From a virus, in IMG/VR virus record IMGVR_UViG_3300048790_000047, positions 1-58,793 of that record: a stretch of DNA of 58,793 nucleotides, one strand, 5' to 3'. A program made the position numbers and the translations under genes. Positions within the stretch are counted from its first letter, which is position 1. The number at the start of each line of letters is the position of its first letter. Positions 1,918-25,220 of the stretch are shown piece after piece. The notes beneath the pieces are model-generated. The model saw nothing but the letters and a program-made list of their open reading frames with translations, was not told the DNA's origin and did not search any database.

Positions 1918-1931
1918 AACGAACCCCTGAT

Positions 1932-2008: not shown

Positions 2009-2031
2009 TAACTTTTTCCGTTAGTCAGGGC

Positions 2032-3042: not shown

Positions 3043-3072
3043 GGGTTGCCCCTGCGTTTTGGAGGCAACCCA
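3042..3072 (-). promoter_or_regulatory. Hairpin covering the capsid gene ribosome site
   Basis: A perfect 9-bp inverted repeat (TGGGTTGCC at 3042-3050, GGCAACCCA at 3064-3072). On the minus-strand mRNA the right half of the stem runs into the first base of the capsid ATG, and the AGGGG ribosome site is partly paired. It could moderate or time translation, or be opened by a protein. Confidence 0.5.
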
Positions 3073-3097
3073 CGCTCTGCGTTAGGTGCCCCCGGTG

Positions 3098-4183: not shown

Positions 4184-4208
4184 GGGAGGCTCCTATTGCG
4201 CGCGAGAG

Positions 4209-4694: not shown

Positions 4695-4695
4695 T

Positions 4696-4887
4696 TTAGC
4701 TCTCCCCGGACATACCAGTGTCGTTAAACCCCGGATTTTGCGGGGCGCTGGCCTGTTTCCCGTACTGCGTCTGCCCCGTGAGAGGCTTAATGCGAGGCGC
4801 AATAAGATCGGGCGGCCGGGAGCCCCGAACGAAATTCGGGTGCTCCGGAGGCTTCGAGATCGTGACTTTGAGGCTGGCTTTAGCCAT
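4696..4887 (-). CDS. Small virion-region protein
   Basis: 63 residues, ATG at 4885-4887 overlapping the previous stop by one base (TAATG). Basic N-terminal half with 'HPNFVRGSRPPDLIAPRIKP', then a Gln/Asn/Gly tail. The tight overlaps on both sides suggest coupled translation with its neighbours. Family not recognised. Confidence 0.65.
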   Translation of the reverse strand: MAKASLKVTISKPPEHPNFVRGSRPPDLIAPRIKPLTGQTQYGKQASAPQNPGFNDTGMSGES

Positions 4888-5117
4888 TATCGGGCGCTGG
4901 TCTTGCCAGCTTGGGCCGGCAGCGCGCCGGTGTACCCGAACATCTTGCCTTTGCCGCCCGATGCGAACTTGTCGCTTCCGCCCGAGCCTACGTCGTGCGC
5001 AGTAGTGCCCGGCTTCTCTTCGCCGGCCTTCTGCGCGCCGAACATATGGGTTTTCCCACCCTCGGCAAACTTGGCGGATTTCTCGGTTTCTTTGCGGCCT
5101 GTGTTAAGTTCAGCCAT
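4887..5117 (-). CDS. Small Gly/Lys-rich protein with two KFA-GGK-MFG repeats
   Basis: 76 residues. Two imperfect copies of the same unit are visible: 'KFAEGGKTHMFGAQKAG' (about residues 16-32) and 'KFASGGKGKMFGYTG' (about 51-65). Short 'FAEGGxxxMFGxxxAGxxxPG' proteins are common near the head genes of podoviruses and are usually annotated as hypothetical or minor virion proteins. The ribosome site AGGAGAT precedes the ATG at 5115-5117. A 91-base gap without genes separates it from the methyltransferase stop. Confidence 0.75.
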   Translation of the reverse strand: MAELNTGRKETEKSAKFAEGGKTHMFGAQKAGEEKPGTTAHDVGSGGSDKFASGGKGKMFGYTGALPAQAGKTSAR

Positions 5118-5208
5118 GACGGTATCTCCTGAAAACTGTGCGGCCGACGTACGCCGACCTCGCGGGTTAGACCCACGTGCAGATAATCAGAAGTCCGTAA
5201 ACAGAGAG

Positions 5209-5895
5209 TTAATCGCGCCGGAAATGCAAGTTGCAGAACGTATAGTTCATACCGAGCCACTGGATGACCCGATCCTTGCAGTGCAGCTTGGTGGGCGATG
5301 TAATGCGAAGTCCCTGGCTGGCGCAGAAATTCACCATATCCAGTACCTCGTCTTTAGTGAAGACCTTAACCGGGGCGCCAAACGCCATTTGACCGCCGGT
5401 ATCGACTGGGTCTTTCCAGTAGTCAAACGACACAAAAAGCTCGCCGCCGCGGCGCAGTACGCGCGCGCAGGAGGCATAGAACGCGCGCCAGTCGACGCCG
5501 TGCTCGATGGTTGATAAGCAGGCAATGAAAGCAAAGTGCTGATCCGGGAACGGGATCGACGTGATATCCCCGTACTGATACGTGGCGCCGCCAACGGACA
5601 CCGGGGCGCCCTCGTCGAGGTTTATCCCATGCAAATCCGTGAAGTCGTGCAAAGCGAGCGTCGGCAAGAAAACAGACGCAGACTTGGGATCACGGCACGC
5701 GCCGGCGTCGAGCACCGGGCCACGTTCCGCGCGGATCGCATGGTACACCGCCAGGAAGTTATCCCAGTTCTTCGTGCGCTCCGGATGGAACGGCCACCCG
5801 CGGGCCATAGCCATAACCTCGGCTTGGCCTACTTCGAGATTACTCTTGAGCGCGCGGTTCGTCTGGGACTGCACCCACTCGTGATCAGTAACCAT
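5209..5895 (-). CDS. Class I SAM-dependent methyltransferase
   Basis: 228 residues, ATG at 5893-5895, overlapping the upstream glycosyltransferase stop by 11 bases. The SAM-binding motif I 'VLDAGACRDP' is near residues 61-70, an acidic motif II 'DLHGINLDE' follows, and 'FAFIACLSTIEHGVDW' then 'VLRRGGELFVSFDYW' match motifs IV-VI of methyltransferase type 11/FkbM-like sugar or small-molecule enzymes. Coupled to a glycosyltransferase and downstream of two collagen-like genes, it probably methylates a sugar or other virion decoration. DNA methylation is unlikely: there is no (D/N)PPY motif or target-recognition domain. Confidence 0.85.
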   Translation of the reverse strand: MVTDHEWVQSQTNRALKSNLEVGQAEVMAMARGWPFHPERTKNWDNFLAVYHAIRAERGPVLDAGACRDPKSASVFLPTLALHDFTDLHGINLDEGAPVSVGGATYQYGDITSIPFPDQHFAFIACLSTIEHGVDWRAFYASCARVLRRGGELFVSFDYWKDPVDTGGQMAFGAPVKVFTKDEVLDMVNFCASQGLRITSPTKLHCKDRVIQWLGMNYTFCNLHFRRD

Positions 5896-7867
5896 GTGAC
5901 AGCATCCAACTTACCTCTTCGGCATTGATCGTGGCCAGCCACGCGGAGTTGTCCTCACGCCCGTAGGATATGATCAATCGCCTCCCGTCTGGGTGCCACG
6001 CGAGGCCAGCGGCGAACTCGATCACCTTATCGTGAAAGCAGAACGGCATCGAGACTGCAACGAGCCGGCTCGATGTATCAAACATCACGAACCGGTGCTG
6101 GTAATAGCGCTTCCCACTGACAGGGAGCGCGCGCGCCTCGTGGATGACCGCCAGCCAGTTCGAGAAGAACGGGATCACCTGCGACCCGCCGCTTAGCGCG
6201 TCTAGCGATAGCTCTGGGTACTCATACTCCCAGGTTGTAACACCGCTAGGGTCCACTACCCTGTTGAGCCTATAGAAGAACTCAAGGCCAACGTCAGACA
6301 CCCGCGGCATCCAGTTCTTCTCATGAACCGGCGGCTGAGACATAACGTGTGGTTTACCCAGCACATCGCCATCGAGCAACTGGGTTAGCACCTGCTGCGC
6401 GCAGCCTTGGGCGTTTAATTCCCGCATCGTGGATGAAGTCCAAAGGTCGCCGTTCCACGAGAACAGGCGCATGTCTTCGAACCCGATCACGAGGTCAAAC
6501 TCGGGCTTCGGCAGGGGAGGCGGTATGATCCGTCTTGAGTTGGCTACGGTCAGATCAAGGGTCAGATCGACGATATAATTGACCGTGTTGATCGGGTTCG
6601 TGCTGTTGGCCTCGCCATTGGTGTCTTTGATCAGATACCGGCCGGCATCGTCAATCGTGTAATTGACGGTACGAACGGTCGTAACGAGGGCGCCTTTATG
6701 CTGGCATATGGACGGATTGAGTTGGGTGGCTTCGTACAAATTCGGAACCACCAATTCCCGCGCCTCGAACGACGGGCAAAAGTCACCGAGAGGCTTGATG
6801 TAGTGGTACAGGTTCGACTTCGCGCCCTCGCGGTTCATGGAGGGCATGTCCCCCTTGATTGCCAGCCGGCTGCACATTTCGTACCCCGCATGGCGGTGCG
6901 CCGGGTTATAGAACGCCGAGATCGCGAACTCCTCTTTGAGGCCCCAGTTGTATACGAAGTCACCCACGAAAAGTTGATCGTCAGGGCGCGGCATCCCTAG
7001 GCCGGCGCGGGCGAAGATCAGCGCGGTGTTGTCCTCACCCTTCTCGCGGTAGTATTTTGACAGGTCATAGAGCGGCTCGGCGCGCTGCGGCCGCATATTA
7101 TACGCCTTCTGGAGATTGAACACAAACCCGTCAGTGTTCCCCAAATTCTTCAGCATGTGCGCATAGTTACACTGGGCGTCGTAGGTCTCTTCTTCCCAGC
7201 CGCCCAGGTCAACGCGCTTCTTGTACGCCTGCGCGGCGTGTGACCACTGGCCCGCATCGCGGTATGACTGTGCGAGGTAAAACCAGGACCGGCCGTTATC
7301 TGGGTCGTCTCTCAGCGCGCCCAGCAACAGCTTGATATCCCGCTCGAACTTGTCTTTGCGGTTGGCACCGTCGGCATGATCGATGAAGTACACGCCCGAA
7401 ATTGCCCGGCCGCCATTGTGCGCCACATCGAGATATTCGTGGGTGACGCCGCGGTACCAGCCGGTCGTGTCCTTCTTGATGATCCGGCGGTTGTAATACG
7501 AAATGCCCGCAGCTTTCTGGAGGATATCGTAGGCGTCGTACTGGAGATTATCTTTGAACGCCGGGTCTTCGACGAAAAGCTCCATATCGGCATCGCAGAG
7601 CAGGATATATTCGCTCGGGTGGACGGCGTTGCGCGCGAGACGGAGCGCAGCATTACGGGCCTGCTCGAAGTTCTTGAAATCCCCGGTATGGATTTCTCCG
7701 GGGATTTCGTGCTCCGACATGATCTCTTCGATCTTTTCGATAGTGCCGTCAGTCGACCCTGTGTCGAAAATAACGTAACTATCGATGTACGGGGCAACGC
7801 TGTTGAGACAACGCTCGATCCGCTCCGCTTCGTTGCGGACGATCATATTCAGACACAGCTTCGGCAT
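5885..7867 (-). CDS. Family 2 glycosyltransferase with TPR linker and GH130-like C-terminal domain
   Basis: 660 residues. The N-terminal GT-A domain begins 'LCLNMIVRNEAERIERCL' and contains 'DTGSTDGT' (35-42) and the metal-binding DAD (92-94). The middle (about 190-300) reads as TPR helices ('DNGRSWFYLAQSYRDAGQW', 'LYDLSKYYREKGEDNTALI'). The C-terminal half contains 'GFEDMRLF', 'KNWMP' and 'LIISYGREDN', reminiscent of the five-bladed propeller of GH130-type phosphorylase/mannosyl enzymes. It starts right after two collagen-like fibre genes and overlaps a methyltransferase gene. I infer that it glycosylates the fibres, or alters sugars for adsorption or exclusion. Confidence 0.85.
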   Translation of the reverse strand: MPKLCLNMIVRNEAERIERCLNSVAPYIDSYVIFDTGSTDGTIEKIEEIMSEHEIPGEIHTGDFKNFEQARNAALRLARNAVHPSEYILLCDADMELFVEDPAFKDNLQYDAYDILQKAAGISYYNRRIIKKDTTGWYRGVTHEYLDVAHNGGRAISGVYFIDHADGANRKDKFERDIKLLLGALRDDPDNGRSWFYLAQSYRDAGQWSHAAQAYKKRVDLGGWEEETYDAQCNYAHMLKNLGNTDGFVFNLQKAYNMRPQRAEPLYDLSKYYREKGEDNTALIFARAGLGMPRPDDQLFVGDFVYNWGLKEEFAISAFYNPAHRHAGYEMCSRLAIKGDMPSMNREGAKSNLYHYIKPLGDFCPSFEARELVVPNLYEATQLNPSICQHKGALVTTVRTVNYTIDDAGRYLIKDTNGEANSTNPINTVNYIVDLTLDLTVANSRRIIPPPLPKPEFDLVIGFEDMRLFSWNGDLWTSSTMRELNAQGCAQQVLTQLLDGDVLGKPHVMSQPPVHEKNWMPRVSDVGLEFFYRLNRVVDPSGVTTWEYEYPELSLDALSGGSQVIPFFSNWLAVIHEARALPVSGKRYYQHRFVMFDTSSRLVAVSMPFCFHDKVIEFAAGLAWHPDGRRLIISYGREDNSAWLATINAEEVSWMLSHGY

Positions 7868-7900
7868 GAAAATCCTAGGGGGCTAGGGGTTTCGGGGGGA

Positions 7901-8473
7901 TCAACCTTTGGAGATTGCCAGGACGTTCGGTCCTGTTGCTCCGCCTGGGTTCCAGATACAGCCAACAATCCGAGGATCGGTCGTCGGCGGAATGAGTACG
8001 GTGTGGTTCCGCACAGGTCCTGGTACTCCAGTAGGCCCGGATTGTCCAGTGGAACCTGCGGCACCGGCGTGACCGGTGTTACCTTTGAAGCCCGGACCTG
8101 TGTTTCCAGTCGGACCGGTTACGCCGGTCGGACCCACTGGCATGGCGCCGGTCGGACCAACAAACGGACCCGTCGGACCAGCAACGCCGGTAGGACCAGT
8201 CGAAGCCGAAAACGTAGGACCAACGATACCATGAGGACCAGTCGGGCCGGTCGCGCCGGTAGGACCAGTCTGACCCAACGAAGGACCAGTCGGACCAACA
8301 CCGGCAGGGCCGGTTGTACCTGTGACGCCAGTGGTACCACTCTGCGGACCGGTGGCGCCAGCGGCGCCGGTCGGACCCGGAATGTTGCCCATGTTAATTC
8401 GATCCACGACCTCCTTGAGGGCGCCGGGGATCGAATTGTCGTCGTACGTGGTCGCTGCGCGAACGGTACTCAT
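7901..8473 (-). CDS. Collagen-like fibre protein
   Basis: 190 residues, ATG at 8471-8473. The N-terminal helix ('[17 protein letters not shown]') probably acts as a trimerising or docking segment. It is followed by about 110 residues of Gly-X-Y with many GPTGPTG units and a C-terminal non-collagen cap ('[16 protein letters not shown]...AISKG'). The N-helix and the cap match the next gene upstream, so the two are tandem paralogues. A thin triple-helical virion fibre or head decoration is the likely role. Confidence 0.9.
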
Positions 8474-8490
8474 GTCAGCCCTCGTTCAGA

Positions 8491-9054
8491 TTAGCCTGCC
8501 GAAACAGTCAGCACGCCAGCGTTGTTCCACACCTGACCGCTGTTATGCGGATCGGACGTGGGCGGTACGATAAGGAAAGCCTGCGTTCCGGTCGGGCCGG
8601 TTGCGCCGGTCGGACCCGTGGTGCCAGCGCCAGTGGCGCCGGTCGGACCCGTCGGACCCGTGGTGCCGCCAGTGGGGCCGGTTACGCCCGTGACGCCAGG
8701 ACCCGTTGGACCCGTGGTGCCCGCGGGACCAGTCGGACCTGAAGCCTGACCAGTTGGGCCGGTGATACCTTGAGGACCCGTTGCGCCGGTGCCAGTCGGA
8801 CCAGCGGGGCCGGTTGCGCCCGTGCTACCAGCGGGGCCTGCCGGACCTTGCGGACCGCCAGAAGGACCCGTCGGGCCGGTTGAACCCGCGGCGCCCGTAG
8901 GGCCTGCGGGACCGGTGCTTGCACCAGTCGGACCAGTGGGACCGGCAACGCCCGTGGGGCCGCCGATGTTTCCCGCGTTTACTGCGGCAACGACCTGACC
9001 GAGGATGTTGCCGAGGTTATTGCGGTCGATATCAGTAGATGCCGGAATTGTCAT
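8491..9054 (-). CDS. Collagen-like fibre protein
   Basis: 187 residues. Same three-part plan as its downstream neighbour: N-terminal helix ('[19 protein letters not shown]'), an almost unbroken Gly-X-Y tract of about 120 residues, and the cap '[21 protein letters not shown]'. It directly follows the portal gene after a 60-base gap. The repetitive tract is a likely site of repeat-number change. Thr at many Y positions would offer acceptors for the adjacent glycosyltransferase; this link is inference. Confidence 0.9.
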
Positions 9055-9114
9055 GGCCTAACCCCTATGGGACGAATTGTTCTCTACGATTAGCCGAAAC
9101 TTATTACTCGATCG

Positions 9115-11418
9115 TTAACCGACCCCCGGAGAGATTGGATTGGCGTGCGGACCAGGTGTATTCCCAGCAAGATTGGCGACTTGCGGGCTCATACCGCCAC
9201 CGCCAAGAGGACTTGTTTTTGTACCTTGACCGACGGCAGCGGCGCGCGCGCTATCACCGCCCGGCCCCAAGTCCATCGCAGGATTATTTGTCGCTGGCTG
9301 CTCACCACCGCCCGGCGGAGTGCCGATATGCGCCGGCGGACCTTCACCCATGCCGCCCCGCTCCGCGAGGATACCGGCCGTAAGTTCAGTCGCGATACGA
9401 GCAACGCCCGCTTCAACGCCCTTCTGGACGCCTTCATCAACACGCTGCTGGATTGCGCCGTTGCCATTTTGCTGTTGCTGCTGCTCGGCCTGGGCCATTT
9501 TCTCGATCTGGTCATCAGGCGGCACGATCTCCTCGCCGTCCAAGCCGATTGTGCTTGACACGGAGCGCAGGACTGCGGCGCGACCCTTGATGCCCATGAT
9601 CTTCTGATCGGTCGGGTTGATCGTGGCGCCGAGGAACTCGATCTGACGCTGGCGGAGCGTCTCGCGCTGGATCGCGACACTGACGCCCTGGACGCTGATC
9701 TTTTCTTCGCCGGTCAACAGGCCGGTGTTATCCGTCAGCATAATCAGGTCAGCGAGGTTCAGGAGCGCAGGCTCCATCACATCGTTGTCGACGTTCGCGC
9801 TGACCGACTGCAAAATCTTCGAGGCGTTGCCCATGAGCATGGCAAGGCCGGACGCCGTGCGCCCCGCTCCGCCGCCAGACTGGCCGCCGACGTACTTCGG
9901 GATCGCGGACACGTCGTCTGCGATGGACACAAAATCATTGAACACCTGCACCAACTGAGCGGCGTTTGAAGTCGGCATGAAGAACGAGATCGGGACCTGT
10001 GTGTTATTGCCCACCGGGTCGTTGCGAACGTGCCACCGCTTCCACGGATAAAGGTCGTCACCGTTCTCTTCGGGCGACAGCCGGTCGTCGTTCACGACCA
10101 CTTGCGGACCGGAGGCTATGCTCAAGTTATTGACAAGGCTGCGCAAAGTGGCGTTTGCCACCTCCTGCAAGTCCGACAGCAAATCCGTCAGGCCGTTGCC
10201 CACCGGGGTGCCGGGGACCTTCTCAAACGAGGTCGTAAAGTACGGGTGGCGCTGGCGCGGCGACGGCGACAGTTGTGCCTTGATGACATGCGAGCCAATG
10301 ACCCAGCACTGCACGGAGTAATCGCGAAGCTCGTCAGGGACGGCAAGGCCATATTCCTGGAGGACGCGTCCCTGCACGTTGCCGTTGAACTCCATCATGG
10401 AGATCATGGCCGATCGGTTCCACGCCGGGTTCTCGCGGCTTTCCAGCACGGCGCGCTCGGAGTCGGTGGTGTCCCAATTATCATACAGGCCGCCGCGGCC
10501 GTACTCGTCGAGCACCGCGCGAATTTCGTCGGCGTTGTAACCCGGCAGATCGAGCAGATCGTTTAGCTCGGCGCGTGTGACGCGCAGCTTCTCGATCACG
10601 TCGGCGTTCGCAATGTCCGAAACACCTGGCGTGAACCAGATATCGAACGGCGATACCCGGTTCCACGTCAGCTTCGGGTTCTGCTTTACCGTCGGCGTGC
10701 CACCGCCAGGCGGCCACACAACTTCGGGAACAACCTTGACCACAGGTCCCTTGATGCAGGCGAAGGGGAAGATGGGGAGGTCGACAAGGAACTCAGCCAG
10801 CGCATGATAAAATCCTCCGTCTCGGAGGAGACCTTCGATGGCCGTGTCTGAGTCACGCGCTTGCTGGACGGCTTTCTTTTTCGCGGCATCTTTCGCTGAC
10901 TCAAGGAGCGCTGTTTTGCGTTGCTGTACATCTTGGGGGTCCGGTGGTTGACTAGTTTGCTGTTGGATAAGTTGTGCCTCATGCTGCATCAACTGGTCGA
11001 TGCTCTGCAAGATTTCATCAGGCACGGCGGGGTCGGCAGGGGGCTTGATCGTCCAGGGCTGATCCTGACCCAGATAAATATCCCGCAAAAGAGAACTCGC
11101 TGCCCGGCACTTTTGGGCGATCAGCCGGGCATAAACCTTGCTGCCGCCAAACTTGTTTAGTTCCATGACCTTAGACGGGTCATACTGGCCGTTGAACGAC
11201 CGCAAGGCAGCGAGCAGCCGGTTCGACCAGCCCGCCTCGGTGTTGCGGTGGTTCCGGAAAATCTCAAACTGGCCTTTGATATAGCCGGCAAGCTGCGGCA
11301 CGGCGGGCGCTGCGGGTTGGGCCGCGGCGACCTTATCCCGCGCCTTTTGCTGAAGCTGTTGTTCGAGGGCCGCAGGGGGTACCACCTGCATTACACCCTG
11401 CTGGCCAATATCAGACAT
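9115..11418 (-). CDS. Portal protein
   Basis: 767 residues, ATG at 11416-11418 behind GGGAAG. Size and order fit the large podovirus portals. The N-terminus has Gln-rich helices. The core includes 'WNRVSPFDIWFTPG', 'RHPYFTTSFEKVPGTPVGNGLTDLLSDLQEVANATLRSLVNN', typical of the P22-like/large portal clip and stem, and 'GGGAGRTASGLAMLMGNAS', a Gly-rich loop found in this portal family. The C-terminal 100 residues are Gln/Gly/Pro-rich. It opens the leftward late operon, divergent from the terminase genes. The portal forms the dodecameric DNA channel. Confidence 0.93.
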   Translation of the reverse strand: MSDIGQQGVMQVVPPAALEQQLQQKARDKVAAAQPAAPAVPQLAGYIKGQFEIFRNHRNTEAGWSNRLLAALRSFNGQYDPSKVMELNKFGGSKVYARLIAQKCRAASSLLRDIYLGQDQPWTIKPPADPAVPDEILQSIDQLMQHEAQLIQQQTSQPPDPQDVQQRKTALLESAKDAAKKKAVQQARDSDTAIEGLLRDGGFYHALAEFLVDLPIFPFACIKGPVVKVVPEVVWPPGGGTPTVKQNPKLTWNRVSPFDIWFTPGVSDIANADVIEKLRVTRAELNDLLDLPGYNADEIRAVLDEYGRGGLYDNWDTTDSERAVLESRENPAWNRSAMISMMEFNGNVQGRVLQEYGLAVPDELRDYSVQCWVIGSHVIKAQLSPSPRQRHPYFTTSFEKVPGTPVGNGLTDLLSDLQEVANATLRSLVNNLSIASGPQVVVNDDRLSPEENGDDLYPWKRWHVRNDPVGNNTQVPISFFMPTSNAAQLVQVFNDFVSIADDVSAIPKYVGGQSGGGAGRTASGLAMLMGNASKILQSVSANVDNDVMEPALLNLADLIMLTDNTGLLTGEEKISVQGVSVAIQRETLRQRQIEFLGATINPTDQKIMGIKGRAAVLRSVSSTIGLDGEEIVPPDDQIEKMAQAEQQQQQNGNGAIQQRVDEGVQKGVEAGVARIATELTAGILAERGGMGEGPPAHIGTPPGGGEQPATNNPAMDLGPGGDSARAAAVGQGTKTSPLGGGGMSPQVANLAGNTPGPHANPISPGVG

Positions 11419-11558
11419 GCGAGCTTCCCGTGTGTGTCCCGCACACTAAGCACGCGAGGGTTAACAGATGCCTAAGGATTACCGCCACGGTAACGGATTA
11501 AGGGTTTGTTAACCTTTTCCGGCGATATAGGAACCCTCACCTAGCGGGGGTTTACGAC
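11419..11558. promoter_or_regulatory. Divergent promoter region, terminase and late operons
   Basis: 140 noncoding bases between the portal start (leftward) and the terminase start (rightward). It contains one exact palindrome (11479-11493), the element GCACACTAAG (11438-11447), which also precedes the adaptor gene, and GTTAAC motifs. No textbook sigma70 pair stands out. Confidence 0.5.
11479..11493. repeat. TTACCGYSRCGGTAA palindrome, exact
   Basis: TTACCGCCACGGTAA in the middle of the divergent terminase/portal intergenic region, where a bound protein could affect both directions. Confidence 0.92.
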
Positions 11559-12281
11559 GTGACAGAAAAGCTCAATGAGCCTGAGCAAAGCGCGCCAGCT
11601 TCAAACCTCCCAGAAGTGACCCCGGTAATACACAGCGCGCTTACGCCCGCAGGGCTAGCCGCACTGGCACGAGAGGTCGCCTTTGATATCCGCGAACTCC
11701 CTACGATCCTAAAAACATTCAAACTCACCGAAGCCCAGTATGAAGAAATTGGAAAAATCCCATTCTTCCAAAACGCGCTCACGAGCGCGACGATCGAATG
11801 GGAAAGCGTCAAAGGCACCGAGGAGCGCATCAAGCTCCGGTCGCAAATCATTCTCGAAGAAAATATCGGCATCGTCGCAGCCCGTATGCGCGACATTAAA
11901 GAGCCCCTCAACTCGGTCGTCGAGACCGGGAAGTTCTTCACGAAGCTCGCCGGTATCGGAGAGCAAAGCAAGTCTGGTGCCAGCGCCGGCGAAAAATTCG
12001 TCATCGAAATTAACCTCGGGGAAGACACCAAACTCCGATTTGAAAAAAACACCACTCCAGATAGCCCGAGCGAAGTACCAGCGCTCATTGAAGGGGAAGT
12101 TGTGCAGGAGACGGTACGACCGGACCCTGAAGGGGATTTTGAACTCGAAGCGAACCCGGAGCCGGTACGACCGGTCCCCGAAGGCGATAATGACCTACCA
12201 CAACTACAACCGAAGCCCACTCGGGCGCGCAAGACGCCACCGGTACGACACCTCGATAAAACGACACCTAGCACGGAGTAG
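11559..12281 (+). CDS. Putative small terminase subunit
   Basis: 240 residues, GTG at 11559. The N-terminal third is helical ('LAALAREVAFDIRELPTILKTFKLTEAQYEEIGKIPFF'), like the HTH-containing domain of small terminases. Helices with 'RIKLRSQIILEENIGIVAARM' follow, then an acidic Pro/Glu-rich tail with 'VRPDPEGD/VRPVPEGD' repeats. It is the first gene of the terminase operon. The tail overlaps an alternative frame with conserved Y-x-R-S repeats starting at an A7 run (12043-12049). The assignment rests on position and the N-terminal domain. Confidence 0.65.
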   Translation: MTEKLNEPEQSAPASNLPEVTPVIHSALTPAGLAALAREVAFDIRELPTILKTFKLTEAQYEEIGKIPFFQNALTSATIEWESVKGTEERIKLRSQIILEENIGIVAARMRDIKEPLNSVVETGKFFTKLAGIGEQSKSGASAGEKFVIEINLGEDTKLRFEKNTTPDSPSEVPALIEGEVVQETVRPDPEGDFELEANPEPVRPVPEGDNDLPQLQPKPTRARKTPPVRHLDKTTPSTE

Positions 12282-12327
12282 AAATAATGCCCGCCGCATT
12301 GAAGGACGACGCATCGCGTCTGCATGA
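12040..12327 (+). other. Overlapping +1 frame with five Y-x-R-S/T repeats (possible dual-coding segment)
   Basis: In the +1 frame over the small terminase tail the sequence reads as five spaced units: YQRSLKGK, YDRTLKGI, YDRSPKAI, YNRSPLGR and YDTSIKRH. Tyr is kept in 5/5, Ser/Thr at position 4 in 5/5 and Arg at position 3 in 4/5. The annotated frame conserves much less across the same units. 'Y-x-R-S-x-K-G-R' repeats are a known basic repeat style in phage and bacterial proteins. Access could be by slippage at the A7 run (12043-12049), by an independent start, or by a one-base sequencing error. The frame ends at TGA 12325-12327, inside the next gene. Confidence 0.4.
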
Positions 12328-13396
12328 CGCAAACGAGATCATTCGGAAGCAGAACGCTGCTGCGGTTGATCTCAAGCGCACCATCGAGGCACTCCGCCGG
12401 GAGAACGACACCGCGGAGAAAATCCGTGCCGAACTCTACGGGCTGTCAGAGCACAACCCGGAGCCGCCGGATTGGTTGTCACGACGCGAAGCGAAGCCCG
12501 GCAAGCGCGGCGGACCGATCACGATCTGGAGCGACTTCCATTATGGCGAGACCATCCAGAAGGATCAAACTGGCGGCGTCAACGAGTACAACATGAAGAT
12601 CGCCAAGAAGCGCTTCACCCGCCTCGTCGACACGACTATCGACTTGTCGTTCAACCATATGGGGCGCGCGGACACGCAGTACCCCGGTATCGTGGTGATG
12701 CTCGGCGGCGACATGATCGGCGGCGATATCCACGAAGAACTGCTCGCCACGAACGATCGCACGTCGCACCAGTCAGTCAATGACCTCACCGACATGCTGG
12801 CCGCTGGTATAGACAACCTGGCGACCAAGTTCGGCAAAGTCTACGCCACCGGCGTCGTAGGTAACCACGGCCGGTCGACCAAGAAAATGATGATGAAGAA
12901 CCGCGTCTATACGAACTACGACTGGTCGATCTACTGTAATCTCGCTCGGTACTTCCGTAAGGAAAAGAATATCCGAATCGACGTGCCAAACTCGGCCGAC
13001 GCGTTCGTGAATGTCTACGGTCATCGCTACATGCTCACACATGGCGACAGCATTGGCGTGAAGGGCGGCGACGGCATCATTGGCGCCATCGGCCCGATCA
13101 TGCGCGGCTCGCTCAAAGTCGGCCAGAGCCAAGCCCAGATGGGACGCGCGTTTGACACGCTGTGCCTGTGCCACTGGCACCAGTACATCACGCTCCCTGG
13201 GCTGATCGTAAACAACGCGCTCAAGGGCTTCGACGAGTACGCGATGCTCGCGCTGCGCGCCAAGTACAGCCGGCCGTCACAGGCCCTGTGGTTCACCCAC
13301 CCCGAGCACGGCATCACGGCACACTGGCAGGTTTACCTCGAAGGGATGAAACATGCCGAAGAAGCGAAGAAGAATTGGGTGAGTGTCTGGGAATAA
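12287..13396 (+). CDS. Calcineurin-like metallophosphoesterase
   Basis: 369 residues, ATG at 12287 six bases after the upstream stop, with GGAG before it. An N-terminal coiled coil (about residues 1-55) precedes the catalytic domain. Metal-binding motifs in order are 'SDFHYG' (about 82-87), 'LGGDMIGGD' (139-147), 'GNHG' (192-195), 'THGDSIG' (about 250) and 'CHWHQY' (about 297). The set corresponds to D-x-H...GD...GNH...GH-x-H, with Trp in the last motif. Phosphoesterases of this type are often found beside phage terminases; the substrate is not known. The active site appears complete. Confidence 0.9.
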   Translation: MPAALKDDASRLHDANEIIRKQNAAAVDLKRTIEALRRENDTAEKIRAELYGLSEHNPEPPDWLSRREAKPGKRGGPITIWSDFHYGETIQKDQTGGVNEYNMKIAKKRFTRLVDTTIDLSFNHMGRADTQYPGIVVMLGGDMIGGDIHEELLATNDRTSHQSVNDLTDMLAAGIDNLATKFGKVYATGVVGNHGRSTKKMMMKNRVYTNYDWSIYCNLARYFRKEKNIRIDVPNSADAFVNVYGHRYMLTHGDSIGVKGGDGIIGAIGPIMRGSLKVGQSQAQMGRAFDTLCLCHWHQYITLPGLIVNNALKGFDEYAMLALRAKYSRPSQALWFTHPEHGITAHWQVYLEGMKHAEEAKKNWVSVWE

Positions 13397-13397
13397 C

Positions 13398-13715
13398 ATG
13401 CCATACGCGAACATCGAGGAGCGTCGTGCTTACCACCAGAACTGGCGGCAGAAGAACCGCCCAAGGCAGCGCCGTGCAAATCTAAAGGCGCTCTACGGGA
13501 TAACGCCAGAACGATATGATCTGATCCTGGCCGCGCAGAACGGCCACTGCGGGATGTGCCCCAGTACATCCCGCCTGGGGGTAGATCACTGCCACAAGAC
13601 AGGTCGCGTACGCGGCATCCTGTGTCGGGTTTGTAACGTCCACCTCGGCGGCCTTGGCGATGATGCCGAGGCGCTTCAACGCGGCCTTAAATATCTGGAA
13701 ACGCCATGTCCATAA
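13398..13715 (+). CDS. HNH endonuclease, recombination endonuclease VII-like
   Basis: 105 residues from the ATG at 13398; an in-frame GTG at 13383 is possible but overlaps the upstream stop. The motif 'GHCGMC...LGVDHCHKTGRVRGILCRVCNVHLGGL' is the Cys4-zinc and DHCH catalytic core of the endonuclease VII HNH group. A very basic N-terminus (about 20 Arg/Lys/Gln-rich residues) likely contacts DNA. Sitting between the phosphoesterase and the large terminase and overlapping the latter by 10 bases, it may be a free-standing homing nuclease or a packaging-associated nicking enzyme. Confidence 0.88.
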   Translation: MPYANIEERRAYHQNWRQKNRPRQRRANLKALYGITPERYDLILAAQNGHCGMCPSTSRLGVDHCHKTGRVRGILCRVCNVHLGGLGDDAEALQRGLKYLETPCP

Positions 13716-15160
13716 GCTATACGGCCCCCGCTACTTGCGCGACCTTCATGAAGTCCGACGCGTTCGGCCGGCTAATAGCTGGGCCGGTGGGCTCGGGCAA
13801 GACAACGGCGTGCGTCATCGAGTTGATGAAGCGCTCGATGGCCCAGTCGAAAGCGCGCGATGGCTTCCGGTACACCCGCCACGCCATCGTCCGGCAGACG
13901 CTGAAACAGCTTAAAGACACCGTGCTGAAAGACGTGCGCTCATGGCTCGGCGGCCTGGGCGAATGGCGCGTGTCTGAAAATACTTTTCACCTGAACTTTG
14001 GCGACGTGCGCAGCGAATGGATTTTCATCCCCCTCGAAGACGCCGCCGACCAGGCGCGCTTGCTCTCGATGCAGCTTACAGGCGCGTGGTTGTCTGAGGC
14101 GATCGAAATGAACCTAGATGTTGTGGCTCCAATAACGGGTCGTCTCGGTCGTTTCCCGTCAGGCGCGCAAGGCACACCGACGTGGCACGGCTTGATCGCT
14201 GACACCAACATGCCTACTGAGTTGTCACCTTGGCACCAGTTCATGATCAACCCGACACCGGACTGGCAGATGTACATCCAGCCGTCAGGCTTGGCACCGA
14301 ACGCTGAGAACCTGAATTGGCTTGTGCAGAACGAACGCACGATCCTCCTCCCGATTGATCATCCGGATCGCATCGCGCAGGGGCGCAAGTACTATGAGCG
14401 CTTCGTCGAAATGTACGGCGAAGATAGCGACTGGGTGAAGCGCTACGTCAAGGCGCAGTACGGCGACGACCCAAGCGGTCTAGCTGTCTTCCGCGAGACC
14501 TTCCGTGCTGAGTTCCATGTGAAGGACAGCACTTTACTCATACCTGGATACCCGCTACTGGTGGCGCAGGACTTCGGCCGTAACCCGTGGTCGCTGATCT
14601 GCCAGGCTGACCACCAAGGCCGGCTCATTGTGCATGAGGAAGTTCCCGGCACGAACATAGGACTTGAGAAGCATGTCAACCAAAACCTGCGCCCTCGACT
14701 GCTTTCGGACAAATATGCAGGCTATAAAGTCGGTGTCATTGGCGACCCGGCAGGCGTTGCAAAAGGCTCGGTCTCCGAAGAGTCAAACTTTGACGCACTC
14801 AAGCGCATGGGCTTCCCCTGCTACCCGGCGCCCACAAACGACATTGACCCACGACTCCGGGCTGTCGAGAGCCTTCTCGGACGCCAAACGAACGGCGGTC
14901 CAACCCTGATTTTCAACCGCACCGGATGCCCAATGCTCATTCGCGCCATGAGCGGCGGCTACCGCTTCACCAAGATGAAGGGCGGCGCGCTGCGCGCGAT
15001 ACCAGACAAGAACGATAAAGAAGGTTTCTCGCACGTCGCGGACTGCTTGCAGTACGCGTGCCTTGCGATGGGCGGTGGAATTATTGGGGAGATCGCTCGT
15101 CGTCTACGGCCGCGGATGGGGGCAAAACGCCCGACGATATCTGCTGCCGGCTGGACGTGA
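13706..15160 (+). CDS. Large terminase subunit
   Basis: 484 residues, ATG at 13706. Walker A 'GPVGSGKT' (26-33); 'LLSMQLTGAWLSEAIEM' (about 119-135) carries the Walker B-like strand and catalytic Glu; the C-terminal RNase H-like nuclease starts with 'LLVAQDFGRNPWSLI' (Asp289), with further acidic positions near 'VIGDPAG' and 'VADCLQYA'. The protein packages DNA through the portal using ATP and cuts the concatemer. Its last 80 bases overlap a convergent leftward gene. Confidence 0.95.
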   Translation: MSISYTAPATCATFMKSDAFGRLIAGPVGSGKTTACVIELMKRSMAQSKARDGFRYTRHAIVRQTLKQLKDTVLKDVRSWLGGLGEWRVSENTFHLNFGDVRSEWIFIPLEDAADQARLLSMQLTGAWLSEAIEMNLDVVAPITGRLGRFPSGAQGTPTWHGLIADTNMPTELSPWHQFMINPTPDWQMYIQPSGLAPNAENLNWLVQNERTILLPIDHPDRIAQGRKYYERFVEMYGEDSDWVKRYVKAQYGDDPSGLAVFRETFRAEFHVKDSTLLIPGYPLLVAQDFGRNPWSLICQADHQGRLIVHEEVPGTNIGLEKHVNQNLRPRLLSDKYAGYKVGVIGDPAGVAKGSVSEESNFDALKRMGFPCYPAPTNDIDPRLRAVESLLGRQTNGGPTLIFNRTGCPMLIRAMSGGYRFTKMKGGALRAIPDKNDKEGFSHVADCLQYACLAMGGGIIGEIARRLRPRMGAKRPTISAAGWT

Positions 15161-16423: not shown

Positions 16424-16610
16424 CAGACACCTTGAGCTTGGGTTTCTCGTTATCCGCGAGGGGCACCAGCTTGAAGCCAGCGAACCACGCTTGCACTAAA
16501 AACGAGGTTGCCTCGTTCGCACCGATGATGTTCGACAACCAGGCGAAGGCCGGGCTGGACTTAGCTGCCTGTAGCGTCGTTGGCGTTTCCGTCGGCTGGG
16601 TCTGGGACAT
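16398..16610 (-). CDS. Hypothetical small protein
   Basis: 70 residues from the ATG at 16608-16610, behind AGGAA. Thr/Pro/Gln-rich N-terminus, then 'FAWLSNIIGANEATSFLVQAWFAGFKLVPL' with hydrophobic character, and a Lys-rich end. It may associate with membranes. Unrecognised family. Confidence 0.6.
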   Translation of the reverse strand: MSQTQPTETPTTLQAAKSSPAFAWLSNIIGANEATSFLVQAWFAGFKLVPLADNEKPKLKVSGAKKLIVP

Positions 16611-17283
16611 GGTGGATTCCTGTTGCGCCGCGCGCGATGATCTCGCCAACGGCAATGGGTTCAATCGCCATCGAGGACTCCTCCAGCGGGACCATTAGCT
16701 GTGAGCGTGTCACCGTGCCAGTAGACTGGAGGTTGATTAAGTCGAGGATGTGCTTCCGGTGGTTAGCCGGCATGTAGTAGCCCTTGCCCCATATTGTCGT
16801 GATCTCGATGTTGAGGGGGCGCAGCTTTTTGCGCAGCTTGCAGATAAAAACGTCGACGATTTTTATCTCGGTGGGGTCCGGCGGATTACCGCGGCACTCT
16901 TCACCGGCATTGTGAAGCATCTCTCGGGTGACTTCGTTCTTGCGCAGCATCAGCAGCATGTAGGCTGTCTCTACGCGTGTCAACCGAAAAAGGCGGCTGA
17001 GCCCCAGCCCTAAGTCTTCGTCGGTGCCCTTGATGTTCCGTACGAACGCTGGCTCGCGCGCATCGGCGTTGGTGCCGGGGGTCCAGTCGTCTTTTGGGGT
17101 ACGCGTGATGGCGCCCTTCTCGGCAGCGACCTGTATCGCACAGCGCACCCAGTCGGCCGGCTTATTGGTGGCCCGAGCAATCGCTCGGACGGGCACCCCT
17201 TCGCGGGCCATTAACGTCACGAGCGGTGATAGCACCGGGTCCGGGACGTAATTTTCGAGTGCGTCTGCATCGATCGCTGGCAT
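16561..17283 (-). CDS. OmpR-type winged-helix DNA-binding protein
   Basis: 240 residues from the ATG at 17281-17283, behind AGGGGG. The N-terminal half holds an HTH-like stretch ('VPVRAIARATNKPADWVRCAIQVAAEKG'). The middle has 'SRLFRLTRVETAYMLLMLRKNEVTREML...EIKIVDVFICKLRKKL..IEITTIWGKGYYM', the trans_reg_C fold of OmpR/PhoB proteins including the recognition helix (VDVFICKLRKKL) and the C-terminal hairpin (WGKGYYM). There is no receiver domain, so it is not a standard response regulator. It is preceded by a 282-base gap with its own likely promoter. A role as phage transcription regulator is inferred. Confidence 0.85.
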   Translation of the reverse strand: MPAIDADALENYVPDPVLSPLVTLMAREGVPVRAIARATNKPADWVRCAIQVAAEKGAITRTPKDDWTPGTNADAREPAFVRNIKGTDEDLGLGLSRLFRLTRVETAYMLLMLRKNEVTREMLHNAGEECRGNPPDPTEIKIVDVFICKLRKKLRPLNIEITTIWGKGYYMPANHRKHILDLINLQSTGTVTRSQLMVPLEESSMAIEPIAVGEIIARGATGIHHVPDPADGNANDATGS

Positions 17284-17550
17284 GGGAGCCCCCTGGGGAT
17301 GGGAAAATTCTTGGATTACTTTTTTATTGACCAACCCTTAACAAAGAGTTTACGTGGGGTACTTCAGATAAAGCAAGGGAAAAATGGTACCCCGGTAGTG
17401 TTTTTCAACACTCTGGTACCGCCCGAGCCCTATCTGTTGAAACCGGAAGGTGGGTCCGACGTGCAACCCCCGTCGAGCGGCCAGCGCGAAGCATAGCGAC
17501 CCATGCCGCCGGACCCGCGCTGACACTAGATGTGGTAGGATAACAAATCG
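17284..17550. promoter_or_regulatory. Noncoding region upstream of the winged-helix gene
   Basis: No gene seen. It holds two GGTACC sites (about 17387 and 17415), a small hairpin (AGTGT/ACACT) between them, and a CTAGATGTGGTAGGA copy (17526-17540) of an element otherwise confined to the 19.8-20.6 kb control region. A leftward promoter for the winged-helix gene is expected here. Confidence 0.4.
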
Positions 17551-19160: not shown

Positions 19161-19487
19161 TTAAGCGGTTAACGAAATTCCGCTTGAGGCCTTCGCCTTG
19201 GGGGCGGAGGCAGTGGCCACCGCAACGCCGCGCATATAGCTATATTTGAGCACGCTATTCGCAGGGAATTTCCCATTGGCGTCCACTTTGAGCGTTGCCT
19301 TTGCAGCGGCTGGCAGCGCCTCGGCAATGGAAGCTAGTACCTTGTTAGCTTCCTGCTCAAATTCCGCCTTGGCCGCCTTAACTTGCGCAAACAAGTCCCG
19401 CACGATTTGATGCTTAGCCTGCAACGTCGGCGGGAGAGTTTCCACTTTGATTGCAAGCCACGAAAGCTCTTCTTTGAATTTAGGCAT
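19161..19487 (-). CDS. Hypothetical helical protein, first leftward early gene
   Basis: 108 residues from the ATG at 19485-19487, spaced correctly from GAGGA; another ATG nine bases upstream touches GAGGA directly. Two-thirds helical ('QIVRDLFAQVKAAKAEFEQEANKVLASIAEAL'), then 'LKVDANGKFPANSVLKYSYMRGV' and a Lys/Ala/Ser tail. It is the gene closest to the control region on the left, so probably expressed first. A small DNA-binding or nucleoid-like role is possible but unsupported by a motif. Confidence 0.65.
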   Translation of the reverse strand: MPKFKEELSWLAIKVETLPPTLQAKHQIVRDLFAQVKAAKAEFEQEANKVLASIAEALPAAAKATLKVDANGKFPANSVLKYSYMRGVAVATASAPKAKASSGISLTA

Positions 19488-19545
19488 TTTAGTCATTCCT
19501 CAGTTTTGCTCATTTGGCGTTATTGCCTATAGAGCGTTGGTTTTC

Positions 19546-19576
19546 CTTAGTCCCAGTGGCGACTAAGCCACTGGGA
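19546..19576. promoter_or_regulatory. Two mutually exclusive hairpins in the leftward leader
   Basis: CTTAGTC (19546-19552) pairs with GACTAAG (19561-19567), or TCCCAGTGG (19551-19559) pairs with CCACTGGGA (19568-19576). The arms interlock, so only one can form at a time. About 60-90 bases upstream of the first leftward gene; an attenuator-like or protein-sensing leader is possible. Confidence 0.4.
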
Positions 19577-19707
19577 CCACCGGAACCCATGCCGGCTCTC
19601 ATCGGGTCACTCCCGCCGCGTCGGGCAGCGCGCTTTCATTCTCTTATGGTGTCACCTTGCAAAGGTATACGACTTTCCGCTAACTCAACCGGACGCGTGC
19701 GAGGCTC

Positions 19708-19722
19708 TTACCGTCACGGTAA
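19708..19722. repeat. TTACCGYSRCGGTAA palindrome, exact
   Basis: TTACCGTCACGGTAA, in the noncoding region between the first leftward gene and the symmetric control region. Confidence 0.92.
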
Positions 19723-19803
19723 GCAGGTTGTAATCTCAAAAATACAACCAAGCCCAGAAACTGCATCACAAACACAAGTAGTTGTTGTCCGGAAGGCATT
19801 TTA

Positions 19804-20598
19804 CTAGATGTAGTAGGTAGGCCGGCTCGAAAGCAGGTTGTACCGATAGGTATTAAATCGCTAGGTATTAGACAAAAATCCTATAAACACAAGATGTAGT
19901 GGGTAAAAATTTTCGACCTACTAGATGTAGCGTTTCTCAAAAGTTGTAACTTGAAACTAGACAATCGGATTTCCGTCGGTTAATTGTTTGGTTAATTATT
20001 TTCACCTTGTAACCTTTTGATATTGTTACCTTTTTGTATTGGTTAACGAGATATTTAACTTAATTCGCGTCGTTTTTTTTGCCTTTATCGACCTCGGCGC
20101 AGTAGTGGTTACGGAATAGTTAACGGATTGCGGCAGTAAATAGGCAGAAAGAGGCTGATCCTTACTGTGTAAGGGAACAAACCATAAACATTAACTATTC
20201 ATCAACTATTTGTTAACGATTTGTAAATCACTACTCCGGCGACCCCCCCCAAAGGTGTTTTTTTCAACGCGAATTAAGTTAAATATGTTGTTAACCATTG
20301 AAAAGGTGTAAAGGTATCAACTACTTACCCCACAATTTTAATTAACCAAATAATTCGCCACGACAAAACAGGTTGTAACTTTTGACCCTCCGAGTTGTAC
20401 TTTACAACCCAAAACGCTATAAACTGTTAACCACTACTTTCAAAAGTGTACAAATAGGAATTTATTTCCAGCGAGTTAGCGAAATAAACTGTTAACCTTT
20501 ATAAACGCGGCGTAAACGCTGCCGACAAGGTGGGCGCGTTTTTGCCGGCCTATAATGGACACGGATGGATATGATTGGACACGACCTACTACATCTAG
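19804..20598. other. Symmetric AT-rich control region, candidate origin and mirrored early promoters
   Basis: Noncoding. Four nested inverted-repeat pairs lie about one centre: TTTGGTTAATTA 19987-19998 with 20339-20350; a 32-bp arm 20041-20072 with 20265-20296 (29/32 match); 20101-20128 with 20208-20235 (20/28); and CCTTACTGTGTAAGG at 20160-20174. The first three pairs centre at 20168-20168.5. An outer 15-bp perfect inverted pair CTAGATGTAGTAGGT lies at 19804-19818 and 20584-20598. GTTAAC occurs at 20042, 20119, 20212, 20290, 20426 and 20491; ATAAACTGTTAACC is directly repeated at 20419 and 20484; CAGGTTGTA recurs at 19725, 19833 and 20369. Early genes diverge from it. Confidence 0.75.
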
Positions 20599-20790
20599 GG
20601 GCATCTGCTACCGCGCGCGTTGGTCTCTGCCCGACGCGGCGGGGGCGTGACCATAGCGGCGCGGCAGGAACCGCACCCGAACAGGGCCATCCAATGCTGG
20701 CACTAGGGATTAACGCACAGCGTGAACACCTAGTCGCCAAGAGCGGCGGACGGCATACTAACCCGGTCGGTTCCTGCCAATGCCCACAAC
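20551..20790 (+). ncRNA. Candidate structured leader upstream of the rightward early operon
   Basis: A TATAAT box (20551-20556) is followed by 250 bases with nested complementarity. GGCAGGAACCG (20663-20673) pairs with CGGTTCCTGCC (20768-20778); inside it ACTAGG...CCTAGT enclose CGC-ACA-GCG (about 20701-20734). A CGCGTTGG/CCGACGCG stem lies upstream near 20615-20638. No -35 box is clear. The 82-codon open frame through here has low-complexity, unlikely protein content, so I read it as leader RNA. Confidence 0.35.
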
Positions 20791-20809
20791 CAACGGCTGA
20801 GGAGCCAAC

Positions 20810-20968
20810 ATGAAGCACTTCAAGTACAACGAACCCCCGCGTGAGTTCAGTTCCTTGCTCACATACAGCGTGATCGAGGACGAGATTGACGAAACGCACG
20901 AACTGGCCCGGCGTACCTATGACAAGGTGGCACGGTGTCAGCGCGACGAAAATCGGCGTCAGTCATAA
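20810..20968 (+). CDS. Small acidic early protein
   Basis: 52 residues. The ATG at 20810 follows CAACGGCTGAGGAGCCAAC, a leader repeated before the gene at 21222. Charged, helical ('VIEDEIDETHELARRTYDKVARCQRDENRR'). First rightward early gene. Function unknown. Confidence 0.7.
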   Translation: MKHFKYNEPPREFSSLLTYSVIEDEIDETHELARRTYDKVARCQRDENRRQS

Positions 20969-21160: not shown

Positions 21161-21221
21161 CTTAGCCCCTTTACAAAGAGGTTAAGAAAAGGTAACAAGG
21201 TTCAACGGCTGAGGAGCCAAC

Positions 21222-21464
21222 ATGAGCATATTCAAACGGCGGCATTACAACGAAATTGCCCGTTCTATGCAGGCGTCGGCGCTCGATGCCCTGTGGAGCG
21301 AAGATGCGCATATTGCGCGGGAAAACATCATCAACGCGTTGATCCGCATGTTCCGCAACGATAACAACAGGTTTGACGCTGAGCGTTTCCGTTGGGCGTG
21401 CCAGCCCGGTGCCAACGTATCAGCTAGATCGCCCGATAAGATGGGCAACTTGGAGGCAAAATGA
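21222..21464 (+). CDS. Small early protein
   Basis: 80 residues. The leader (about 21203-21221) repeats the one before the gene at 20810, including GAGGAG. Basic N-terminus, then helical. Its end overlaps the next start by four bases. Function unknown. Confidence 0.65.
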   Translation: MSIFKRRHYNEIARSMQASALDALWSEDAHIARENIINALIRMFRNDNNRFDAERFRWACQPGANVSARSPDKMGNLEAK

Positions 21465-24083: not shown

Positions 24084-25220
24084 ATGAATTTACGGGACGC
24101 ACAGAATGAATTGCTGGCGCAGGTGGAGGCGGGTAACGCCGTACTCCTACGTTCCGGCTCTGGTATCGGCAAGTCGCAGATCGTGGCACAGACCTTCGAG
24201 AAGCTGAAGGCCGATGGTGCCACGCGTGGCGAGACATGGGGTCTGGGTATTATCTTCGCAGCTACCCAGACGCCGCCTGATCTTATTGGTTATCAGTTCA
24301 AAGGCGAGCGCGAGTTCGACGATGGCAAAGGTGGCAAGGTGTCAGTCACTGTGACTGACCCAAGCGTACCGTTGTGGATGATATCCACCGAGGGTAAGCC
24401 CGCTTGGATGTATGACCGTTTCTTCCTGCTCATTGACGAGTACGGGCAGGGTGAGCCGGATACCAAGCGCGCCATCGCTGAAATCTTTTTGAACGGTGGC
24501 ACATCGCCGTGGTATCTGCCCAAGGGCAGCGTGCGTGTGGCCTGTACCAATGCTGGTGCACGCTACGGTGTGACCAAGGACTTCGACTTCTGTATCACTC
24601 GTCGTTCTGTCATCGATATAACTGGCGACGTGGACCTGTGGCTGGCGTATGCTGACAAGCCCTACGCCTATCAAGGTGCCATGTGGCAGACGATGCCCGT
24701 GATCAAAGCGTGGGCCGCTACTCACCCTGAGGTTCTGTTCGAGAGTGAGCCGCAAGAGCAGGGACCGTGGTGCAACCCGCGTGCCTTGATGGCAGCGGAT
24801 CGCTACCTGCAAATGAAGGCCAAGAATAACAACGGTGTGATCCCGACGGATGCACTCACAACGGAGAGCTTGTCTGGTATCCTTGGTATGCCTGCCACTC
24901 AGTCACTTGTTAACCACTTGCAGTTCAGGTTGGAGCTTCCGTCTTATGACGACGTGATCGCTGACCCGGCGAACTGTAAGGTGCCGACGCGTGCTGACCT
25001 GATCATGCTCATGGCGTATGAGTTGGCAGGGCACACCAAGAAACAAGACCTTGGGCCGTGCATCACGTACATGCAGCGCTTGCCCAAGGACATGGGTGTG
25101 ACGTATATCTCGTCGCTCCTGCGGCGGGACTACAAGGGCATGATCAACGAGCCGGCGATGCAGGGCTGGATCAACAAGAACGCGGCGCTGGTGTCGATCA
25201 TCGCATCGCTCGCAGCGTAG
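24084..25220 (+). CDS. MoxR-type AAA+ ATPase
   Basis: 378 residues. Walker A 'RSGSGIGKS' (23-31), Walker B 'FFLLIDEYGQGEPD' (113-126), a sensor-1-like 'VRVACTNAG', and 'FDFCITRRSVID' giving an arginine-finger region. This is the RavA/MoxR chaperone style. A gene encoding a zincin/VWA protein lies about 1.7 kb downstream in the same unit; MoxR ATPases typically remodel complexes together with a VWA partner. The target is unknown and could be a host protein early in infection. Confidence 0.88.
   Translation: MNLRDAQNELLAQVEAGNAVLLRSGSGIGKSQIVAQTFEKLKADGATRGETWGLGIIFAATQTPPDLIGYQFKGEREFDDGKGGKVSVTVTDPSVPLWMISTEGKPAWMYDRFFLLIDEYGQGEPDTKRAIAEIFLNGGTSPWYLPKGSVRVACTNAGARYGVTKDFDFCITRRSVIDITGDVDLWLAYADKPYAYQGAMWQTMPVIKAWAATHPEVLFESEPQEQGPWCNPRALMAADRYLQMKAKNNNGVIPTDALTTESLSGILGMPATQSLVNHLQFRLELPSYDDVIADPANCKVPTRADLIMLMAYELAGHTKKQDLGPCITYMQRLPKDMGVTYISSLLRRDYKGMINEPAMQGWINKNAALVSIIASLAA

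Follow-up and report, generated by a model that had tools for sequence, protein, structure and literature searches.

A mirror-symmetric control region as the probable replication origin of a class of tailed phages

The Control Region and Its Symmetry

The DNA analysed here, which we call the window, is the whole of the IMG/VR virus record IMGVR_UViG_3300048790_000047 (58,793 bp, without end repeats), and our subject is an AT-rich control region at 19.8-20.6 kb that an earlier note, made from the sequence alone, had singled out. Long open reading frames (ORFs) diverge from it, leftward from 19496 and rightward from 20810. This region is mirror-symmetric, and we propose that it is probably the phage's bidirectional replication origin. 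Its features are listed below, with their positions in the window, their strand where they have one, and the consensus sites for integration host factor (IHF) that are considered further on.

19804-20598: AT-rich control region between divergent gene blocks, containing the 350-bp stretch with the least GC (35%) in the window; proposed replication origin
19804-19818, plus strand: outer perfect 15-bp repeat CTAGATGTAGTAGGT, with an inverted partner at 20584-20598; centre of the pair 20201.0
19961-20070: left mirrored arm, inverted repeat of 20267-20376
19989-19995, minus strand: outer left TTAACCA box, mirroring 20342-20348
20010-20022, minus strand: left IHF-consensus site TATCAAAAGGTTA, mirroring 20315-20327
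20040-20046, minus strand: inner left TTAACCA box, mirroring 20291-20297
20101-20128: inner left arm, with GTTAAC at 20119-20124; 20/28 match to 20208-20235
20160-20174: imperfect central palindrome CCTTACTGTGTAAGG, centred on 20167.0
20208-20235: inner right arm, with GTTAAC at 20212-20217; 20/28 match to 20101-20128
20267-20376: right mirrored arm, inverted repeat of 19961-20070
20291-20297, plus strand: inner right TTAACCA box, mirroring 20040-20046
20315-20327, plus strand: right IHF-consensus site TATCAACTACTTA, mirroring 20010-20022
20342-20348, plus strand: outer right TTAACCA box, mirroring 19989-19995
20426-20431, plus strand: GTTAAC box on the right side only, with another copy at 20491-20496
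20584-20598, minus strand: right partner of the outer perfect 15-bp repeat at 19804-19818

The symmetry is genuine and above chance. No other mirror centre in the window scores as high as 20168.5 (z 6.8), and the AT-rich region has 90 mirrored matches out of 190, against a maximum of 77 in 60 of its own dinucleotide shuffles (z 7.8). Five features are centred on 20168.5 within 0.5 bp, including the mirrored IHF-consensus pair, which is centred on it exactly and belongs to a set of only four perfect consensus sites in the whole window; this pair and the mirrored TTAACCA boxes are absent from the earlier note's description. When checked base by base, the three inverted pairs that the earlier note had placed around one centre hold good: TTTGGTTAATTA at 19987/20339 (12/12 matching, centre 20168.5), the 32-bp arms at 20041/20265 (29/32, centre 20168.5) and the 28-bp arms at 20101/20208 (20/28, centre 20168.0). 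Other features of its description need to be qualified, since the outer 15-bp pair at 19804/20584 is indeed perfect (15/15) but not concentric, the central CCTTACTGTGTAAGG lies 1.5 bp off the exact centre, and only four of the six GTTAAC boxes form mirrored pairs (20042/20290 and 20119/20212), those at 20426 and 20491 having no partner on the left. The whole is better described as a single degenerate inverted repeat with gap-free 89-nt arms (19982-20070/20267-20355, 72% identity, E 2e-6 in a 25-kb search); repeat finding returns 20017-20070/20267-20320 at 80% and 19961-19998/20339-20376 at 71%. Five of the six copies of TTAACCA in the window fall within 19989-20433. A separate motif, AGATGTAG, has four of its five window copies in the outer control region (19806, 19892 and 19923 on the plus strand, 20589 on the minus strand).

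Same Layout with Different Letters in Related Phages

Relatives, designated here by L numbers, were collected with the ATPase encoded 4 kb to the right of the centre (window 24084-25220), which gave 7 and then 25, and by terminase alignment, which gave 348, 80 of them retrieved; both sets consist of metagenomic contigs throughout. When some 20 kb about the site of each relative is compared with itself, the best long-range inverted repeat falls in the single AT-rich gap between the diverging blocks in the window, L006, L008, L009 (E 5e-11), L012, L015 (E 2e-11), L020, L022, L023, L025 and L027, and a second scan, of an independent set, finds such a repeat in L105, L107, L156, L162 and L168 (4e-11 in L168). 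The self-comparison detected none in L004, L028, L029 and L032. The arms of the relatives lie at about +/-50-190 bp from the centre, and each phage has its own tandem repeat of 8-12 bp, or iteron, which is nearly exclusive to the gap and oppositely oriented on its two sides. Most often, two or three copies stand in tandem on the left, with a period of 8-10 bp, and their inverted counterpart follows on the right, 240-310 bp away.

The iteron TAAATGTCC is common to L009, L023, L025, L027, L028 and L195, with 12 copies in the gap and 5 outside in L027, while L195 displays CTAAATGTC in four copies on the plus strand followed by two on the minus strand. Words specific to the gap, with no copy outside, are AAGTGTCCAC in L015 (8 copies; iteron TAAGTGTCC), TCTGCTATGC in L022 (10; CTGCTATGC), TAGTCAAATA in L005 (6; TAGTCAAAT) and TGGACCAATT in L021 (7; TAATTGGTC). 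The iteron of L168 is GCGAATAA, with GCGAATAAGCGAATAA in both the left and the right arm; those of L006 and L020 are GAAATGCT and TATTAGCTG, and that of L105 is ACCCACCAT, with a 12-bp period. Global mirror scores are weak in L020, L023, L027 and L006, where the spacers are asymmetric and the iterons alone are symmetric, so that local repeats show them better. Searching IMG/VR with a tandem iteron added one new mirrored origin candidate, L195, the contig of which is too short for the helicase discussed below, plus unrelated contigs such as L192. Among cultured phages, RHph_TM27A (L013) has seven TTATAATGA repeats in the gap at 19300-20150 and one more elsewhere in the 50 kb examined, which makes this gap a candidate origin in a cultured relative; its declared divergent gap at 17.5-18.2 kb has no iterons.

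There are 12 copies of the IHF consensus WATCAANNNNTTR in the 14.4 kb of control regions, where 0.69 is expected (first-order resampling, maximum 4 in 300), against 20 in the 1.07 Mb outside them, so that the control regions have 44x the density; the assignment to IHF is by consensus match only. Mirrored pairs of such sites are found in the window, L023, L008 and L024, one site lies 18-38 bp external to the left iterons in the window, L006, L023, L025 and L028, and another is close to the centre in several phages. This excess beyond chance fits a putative IHF-dependent nucleoprotein site. What the phages share, judged from the sequences, is not an arm sequence but a short iteron, repeated in tandem in both orientations and accompanied by IHF sites.

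Two further elements recur around the centre. G-runs or polypurine stretches, possibly with a structural role, lie about +/-70-125 bp from the centre, overlapping or just internal to the iterons, in L006, L015, L023, L027, L028 and the window (20244-20251). A CTGCCG motif, often in the form TTTCTGCCG, recurs in the left half-arms, on the leftward strand and some 20-50 bp away from the centre, in L006, L009, L015, L023, L027, L195 and the window, and could be a primase or initiation site.

The Primase-Helicase and Its Co-Variation with the Iterons

Variation in the iterons raises the question of which protein reads them, and the best candidate is the product of a gene well to the right of the control region.

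39914-43036, plus strand: primase-helicase of 1040 aa with a DUF927 helicase; proposed iteron-binding initiator (C-terminal half), from Pfam, fold and co-variation

The protein matches Pfam DUF927 (7e-13), and its N-terminal half matches phage primase/polymerase families but no Pfam family. An AlphaFold model of residues 560-1002 (predicted local distance difference test 79) has a fold matching first Cch of the staphylococcal cassette chromosome SCCmec (3e-13) and Rep of the staphylococcal pathogenicity island (SaPI) SaPIbov1 (5e-10), then D5-type helicases, with winged-helix-like elements at its C-terminus. Cch and SaPIbov1 Rep are helicase-initiators, and SaPI Rep uses its C-terminal domain to recognise iterons. 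By Pfam and fold, the phage encodes its own putative DUF927/SF3-like helicase-initiator with a predicted C-terminal DNA-binding domain. The homologue in RHph_TM27A (MN988461, 42248-45331) is annotated as 'putative integrase', yet it is a DUF927 primase-helicase (Pfam 1e-20) and the annotation looks wrong.

Of the 34 conserved gene families that we compared, 32 are common to the window and five phages with the TAAATGTCC iteron, and these 32 were tested as 199 segments. Only six of the 199 segments separate these five phages cleanly, and every one of them lies in the primase-helicase, between residues 401 and 970; sorting by iteron type reaches 0.88 for this protein. The five do not cluster in its first 400 residues, whereas over residues 640-1040 their identity among themselves is 39-52%, apart from a close pair at 90%, against 20-33% with all others, and they form a clade in the tree of the C-terminal half with support of 100/100. 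A tree of eight other genes rejects this clade (approximately unbiased (AU) test, p 0.009), since it places L021 and L016 within that group; L021 carries another iteron, and both carry another helicase C-terminal half. Partial Mantel tests, for which the iteron words were hand-picked, associate iteron similarity with identity in the C-terminal half given the N-terminal half (p 0.002), while exchanging the two halves gives p 0.6. There is thus good evidence, from sequence comparison, that iteron type and helicase C-terminal half co-vary, in at least one case switching together, and it is probably this half that reads the iterons.

Genome Form, Relatives, and Neighbouring Genes

The 51-kb contig L011, which is 99.9% identical to the window, runs from window position 27,046 to its end, continues with about 5.2 kb of extra sequence and then with window 1-14,435. 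Since it joins the end of the window to its start, the genome is circular or circularly permuted, of about 64 kb. The additional 5.2 kb (31.8-37.0 kb of L011) is absent from the window, and a 118-bp tandem repeat (at least three copies, 93-96% identical) lies at the junction in L011.

By primase-helicase, the nearest cultured phages are the Rhizobium phages RHph_TM27A, TM27B, TM29 and TM3_14A (about 33% identity over 94%), Pseudomonas phage Rollin being a more distant match (24%). RHph_TM27A has the gene order of the window, namely ATPase, metallopeptidase/VWA, PolA, SNF2 helicase and primase-helicase; a terminase is present in the window phage, and in RHph_TM27A portal and capsid follow the same order. 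Comparison with cultured phages at the nucleotide level gave nothing informative, Rfam and tRNA scans gave no match, nor did a search of GTDB genomes for the host with the ATPase. GANTC, the CcrM methylation site, is depleted about tenfold in the window and 17 relatives (0.38/kb outside control regions vs about 3.9/kb in random sequence), hinting at alphaproteobacterial hosts with CcrM-type methylation.

The first ORFs on the two sides of the control region are as follows.

19161-19496, minus strand: first long leftward ORF, 111 aa, without family match
20810-20968, plus strand: first rightward small ORF, 52 aa, with the Shine-Dalgarno-like leader GAGGAG

An identical leader, CAACGGCTGAGGAGCCAACATG, stands at 20790-20812 and 21203-21224, ahead of two consecutive small rightward ORFs, and in L008 a 16-bp leader, ATGCTGAGGAGCACCC, flanks the control region as an inverted pair.

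A Probable Replication Origin and Its Alternatives

In functional terms, these observations create a puzzle: Why do the two arms stay mirror copies of each other when their sequence changes from phage to phage? Our explanation is that the region at 19.8-20.6 kb is most probably the bidirectional replication origin of the phage, of the kind known from SaPIs and phage-inducible chromosomal islands (PICIs), placed between divergent early operons and equipped with IHF sites. Computed for this proposal are the symmetry, the iterons, the IHF-consensus enrichment, the layout conserved while its sequence changes, the co-variation of the helicase C-terminal half and the predicted fold; from these we infer binding, melting, hexamer loading and bidirectionality. 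The two oppositely oriented iteron sets would flank an AT-rich, easily melted centre, host IHF would bend the flanks and bring the sets together, and the C-terminal part of the primase-helicase would bind the iterons, placing one self-loading hexamer on each set, as is thought for helicases of the SaPI Rep/Cch type. Because the sets are inverted, the hexamers would face opposite ways, and therefore two forks would depart from the melted centre, one into each divergent operon. Mirror symmetry would then be a functional requirement and therefore be kept although the letters change.

Several points weigh against this proposal. The repeat of the window is the least crisp of the set, degenerate and not exclusive to the region (ATAGTTAAC, 7 copies within it and 4 elsewhere), and the iteron search found none in L007, L012 and L032. 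The initiator gene lies 20 kb from the control region (39.9 vs 20.17 kb), not adjacent to it as in SaPIs. Co-variation amounts essentially to one independent joint switch, that of L021/L016, the L016 contig being without the iteron region; a search for the C-terminal half returned only the five known phages at >=50%, with no further case to compare, and the tree of the N-terminal half lacks the clade of the five without significantly rejecting it (AU p 0.33). The DnaA box TTWTNCACA is absent from 18 control regions, a neutral point for a self-loading helicase. As proof of an origin, GC skew is mixed: the turning point near 20.17 kb for which the earlier note proposed to look has an approximate match in the window, where the detrended cumulative minimum is 0.7 kb from the centre, as it does in L012 and L007 (0.7-0.8 kb) and, less closely, L004 (3.7 kb), but the minimum is near in only 4/15 phages and far away in the other 11, and skew at fourfold sites is inconsistent, with a clean fit to bidirectional replication in L007 and L012 only. 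Of the two readings that the note had offered, the one with mirrored binding sites in a bidirectional origin is nevertheless the better supported, by the iterons, the IHF sites and the helicase C-terminal half.

The alternative that survives best involves a conserved regulator encoded 3 kb leftward.

16561-17334, minus strand: two-domain DNA-binding regulator with an N-terminal helix-turn-helix (HTH) and a C-terminal CtrA/OmpR-type winged helix, conserved in 18 phages; rival or additional binder

Its HTH is HTH_23/BcepMu gp16-like, its winged helix has CtrA as best NCBIfam family in 17/17 members scanned, and it has no receiver domain. The control region, lying between divergent ORFs, could be a two-sided operator, the iterons of which bind this or another phage regulator while IHF helps to repress or time both early operons symmetrically. 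We considered the CtrA-like protein first as iteron binder, because the window boxes read TTAACCA and resemble TTAACCAT, which we take to be a CtrA half-site, but it sorts little with iteron type (0.28 vs 0.88 for the primase-helicase). No segment of it tells the iteron groups apart, the motif does not follow its sequence, and the iterons of most relatives have no TTAA though the winged-helix sequence stays similar. Moreover, the arms lack promoter-like sites: the mirrored promoters suggested by the earlier note have no sigma-70-like counterpart there, in a scan that gave fewer matches than in shuffles and may miss alphaproteobacterial promoters. We thus consider an operator unlikely.

Both functions could be combined, the origin doubling as a divergent early promoter or timing switch at which the CtrA-like regulator, or host CtrA, competes with the initiator. 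Caulobacter CtrA binds the chromosomal origin itself, and the divergent genes, the IHF sites and the CtrA-like boxes specific to the window fit this idea; such boxes, with the regulator encoded nearby, make an additional regulatory role possible, but they are not class-wide, and we regard a dual site as quite improbable. The other reading of the note was an old inverted duplication kept as mirrored promoters; because the arm sequence differs between phages while the arms stay mirror copies, this is not one duplication kept by descent. An old inverted duplication without present function would fit arms matched at just 71-80% in the window, but drift would erase symmetry, not re-create it, and many phages repeat the layout, at a constrained spacing and with IHF sites, although their arms are unrelated in sequence. 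This explanation is very improbable. Inverted tandem repeats also occur at centromere-like and packaging sites, but a partition, packaging or recombination site is hardly credible here, with terminase genes 5-8 kb off across ordinary DNA, no ParA/ParB-like protein among the conserved proteins scanned, and iterons that sort with the helicase, not the terminase.

A more speculative extension of the origin proposal, which we find rather doubtful, is that iterons and helicase C-terminal half form an exchangeable lock and key, switching together under an unchanged mirrored layout so that co-infecting relatives are barred from each other's initiator, and that the boxes of the window, having become CtrA-like (TTAACCA), would let CtrA of the host or of the phage couple replication to the cell cycle of the host. 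To our knowledge, most tailed phages have no mapped origin. In the present class, the sequence alone shows the layout of a putative origin in many uncultured relatives, and its probable initiator can be named; the phage-specific iterons offer a direct test of specificity by swapping iterons or C-terminal domains, and cultured RHph_TM27A encodes a member of this initiator family and has a candidate iteron region of its own. The satellite, or SaPI, style of self-loading initiator would be extended to a class of ~60-68-kb tailed phages.

Comparison with Known Systems

Origins such as herpes simplex oriL and those of SV40 type are symmetric, lie between divergent early genes and have an initiator that is a helicase or works with one. 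The analogy is of layout only, since the proteins are unrelated. Iteron plasmids and lambda ori present one direct-repeat iteron array, usually with DnaA boxes, at which host DnaB is loaded. The plasmid origins (P1, R6K, pSC101) and lambda ori combine iterons, an AT-rich region and IHF (PMC4980987). The phages analysed here differ from them in having two inverted iteron sets, no DnaA box in 18 control regions and their own helicase.

Satellite phage P4 has short iterons at ori and crr, in several clusters at a distance from the gene; the two required sites are kilobases apart and do not mirror each other about a single AT-rich centre. Its alpha protein unites primase and initiating helicase (PMC7145576). 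This fusion is the likeness with our primase-helicase, compared here by architecture.

PICI origins always have two iteron sets around an AT-rich region (PMC6092414). SaPI/PICI origins with a DUF927-type Rep like that of SaPIbov1, and SCCmec with Cch, resemble the present case in helicase family (Pfam DUF927 and fold) and in element-specific iterons. The differences are that the carriers are tailed phages of ~60-68 kb, not satellites lacking a structural module (the window phage has a terminase), that IHF sites are built in, and that the helicase is fused to an N-terminal primase-like half. Because the putative origin lies between divergent operons 20 kb from the initiator gene, and not directly downstream (3') of rep as in those islands, we class it as a variant of the SaPI/PICI kind rather than a plain member.
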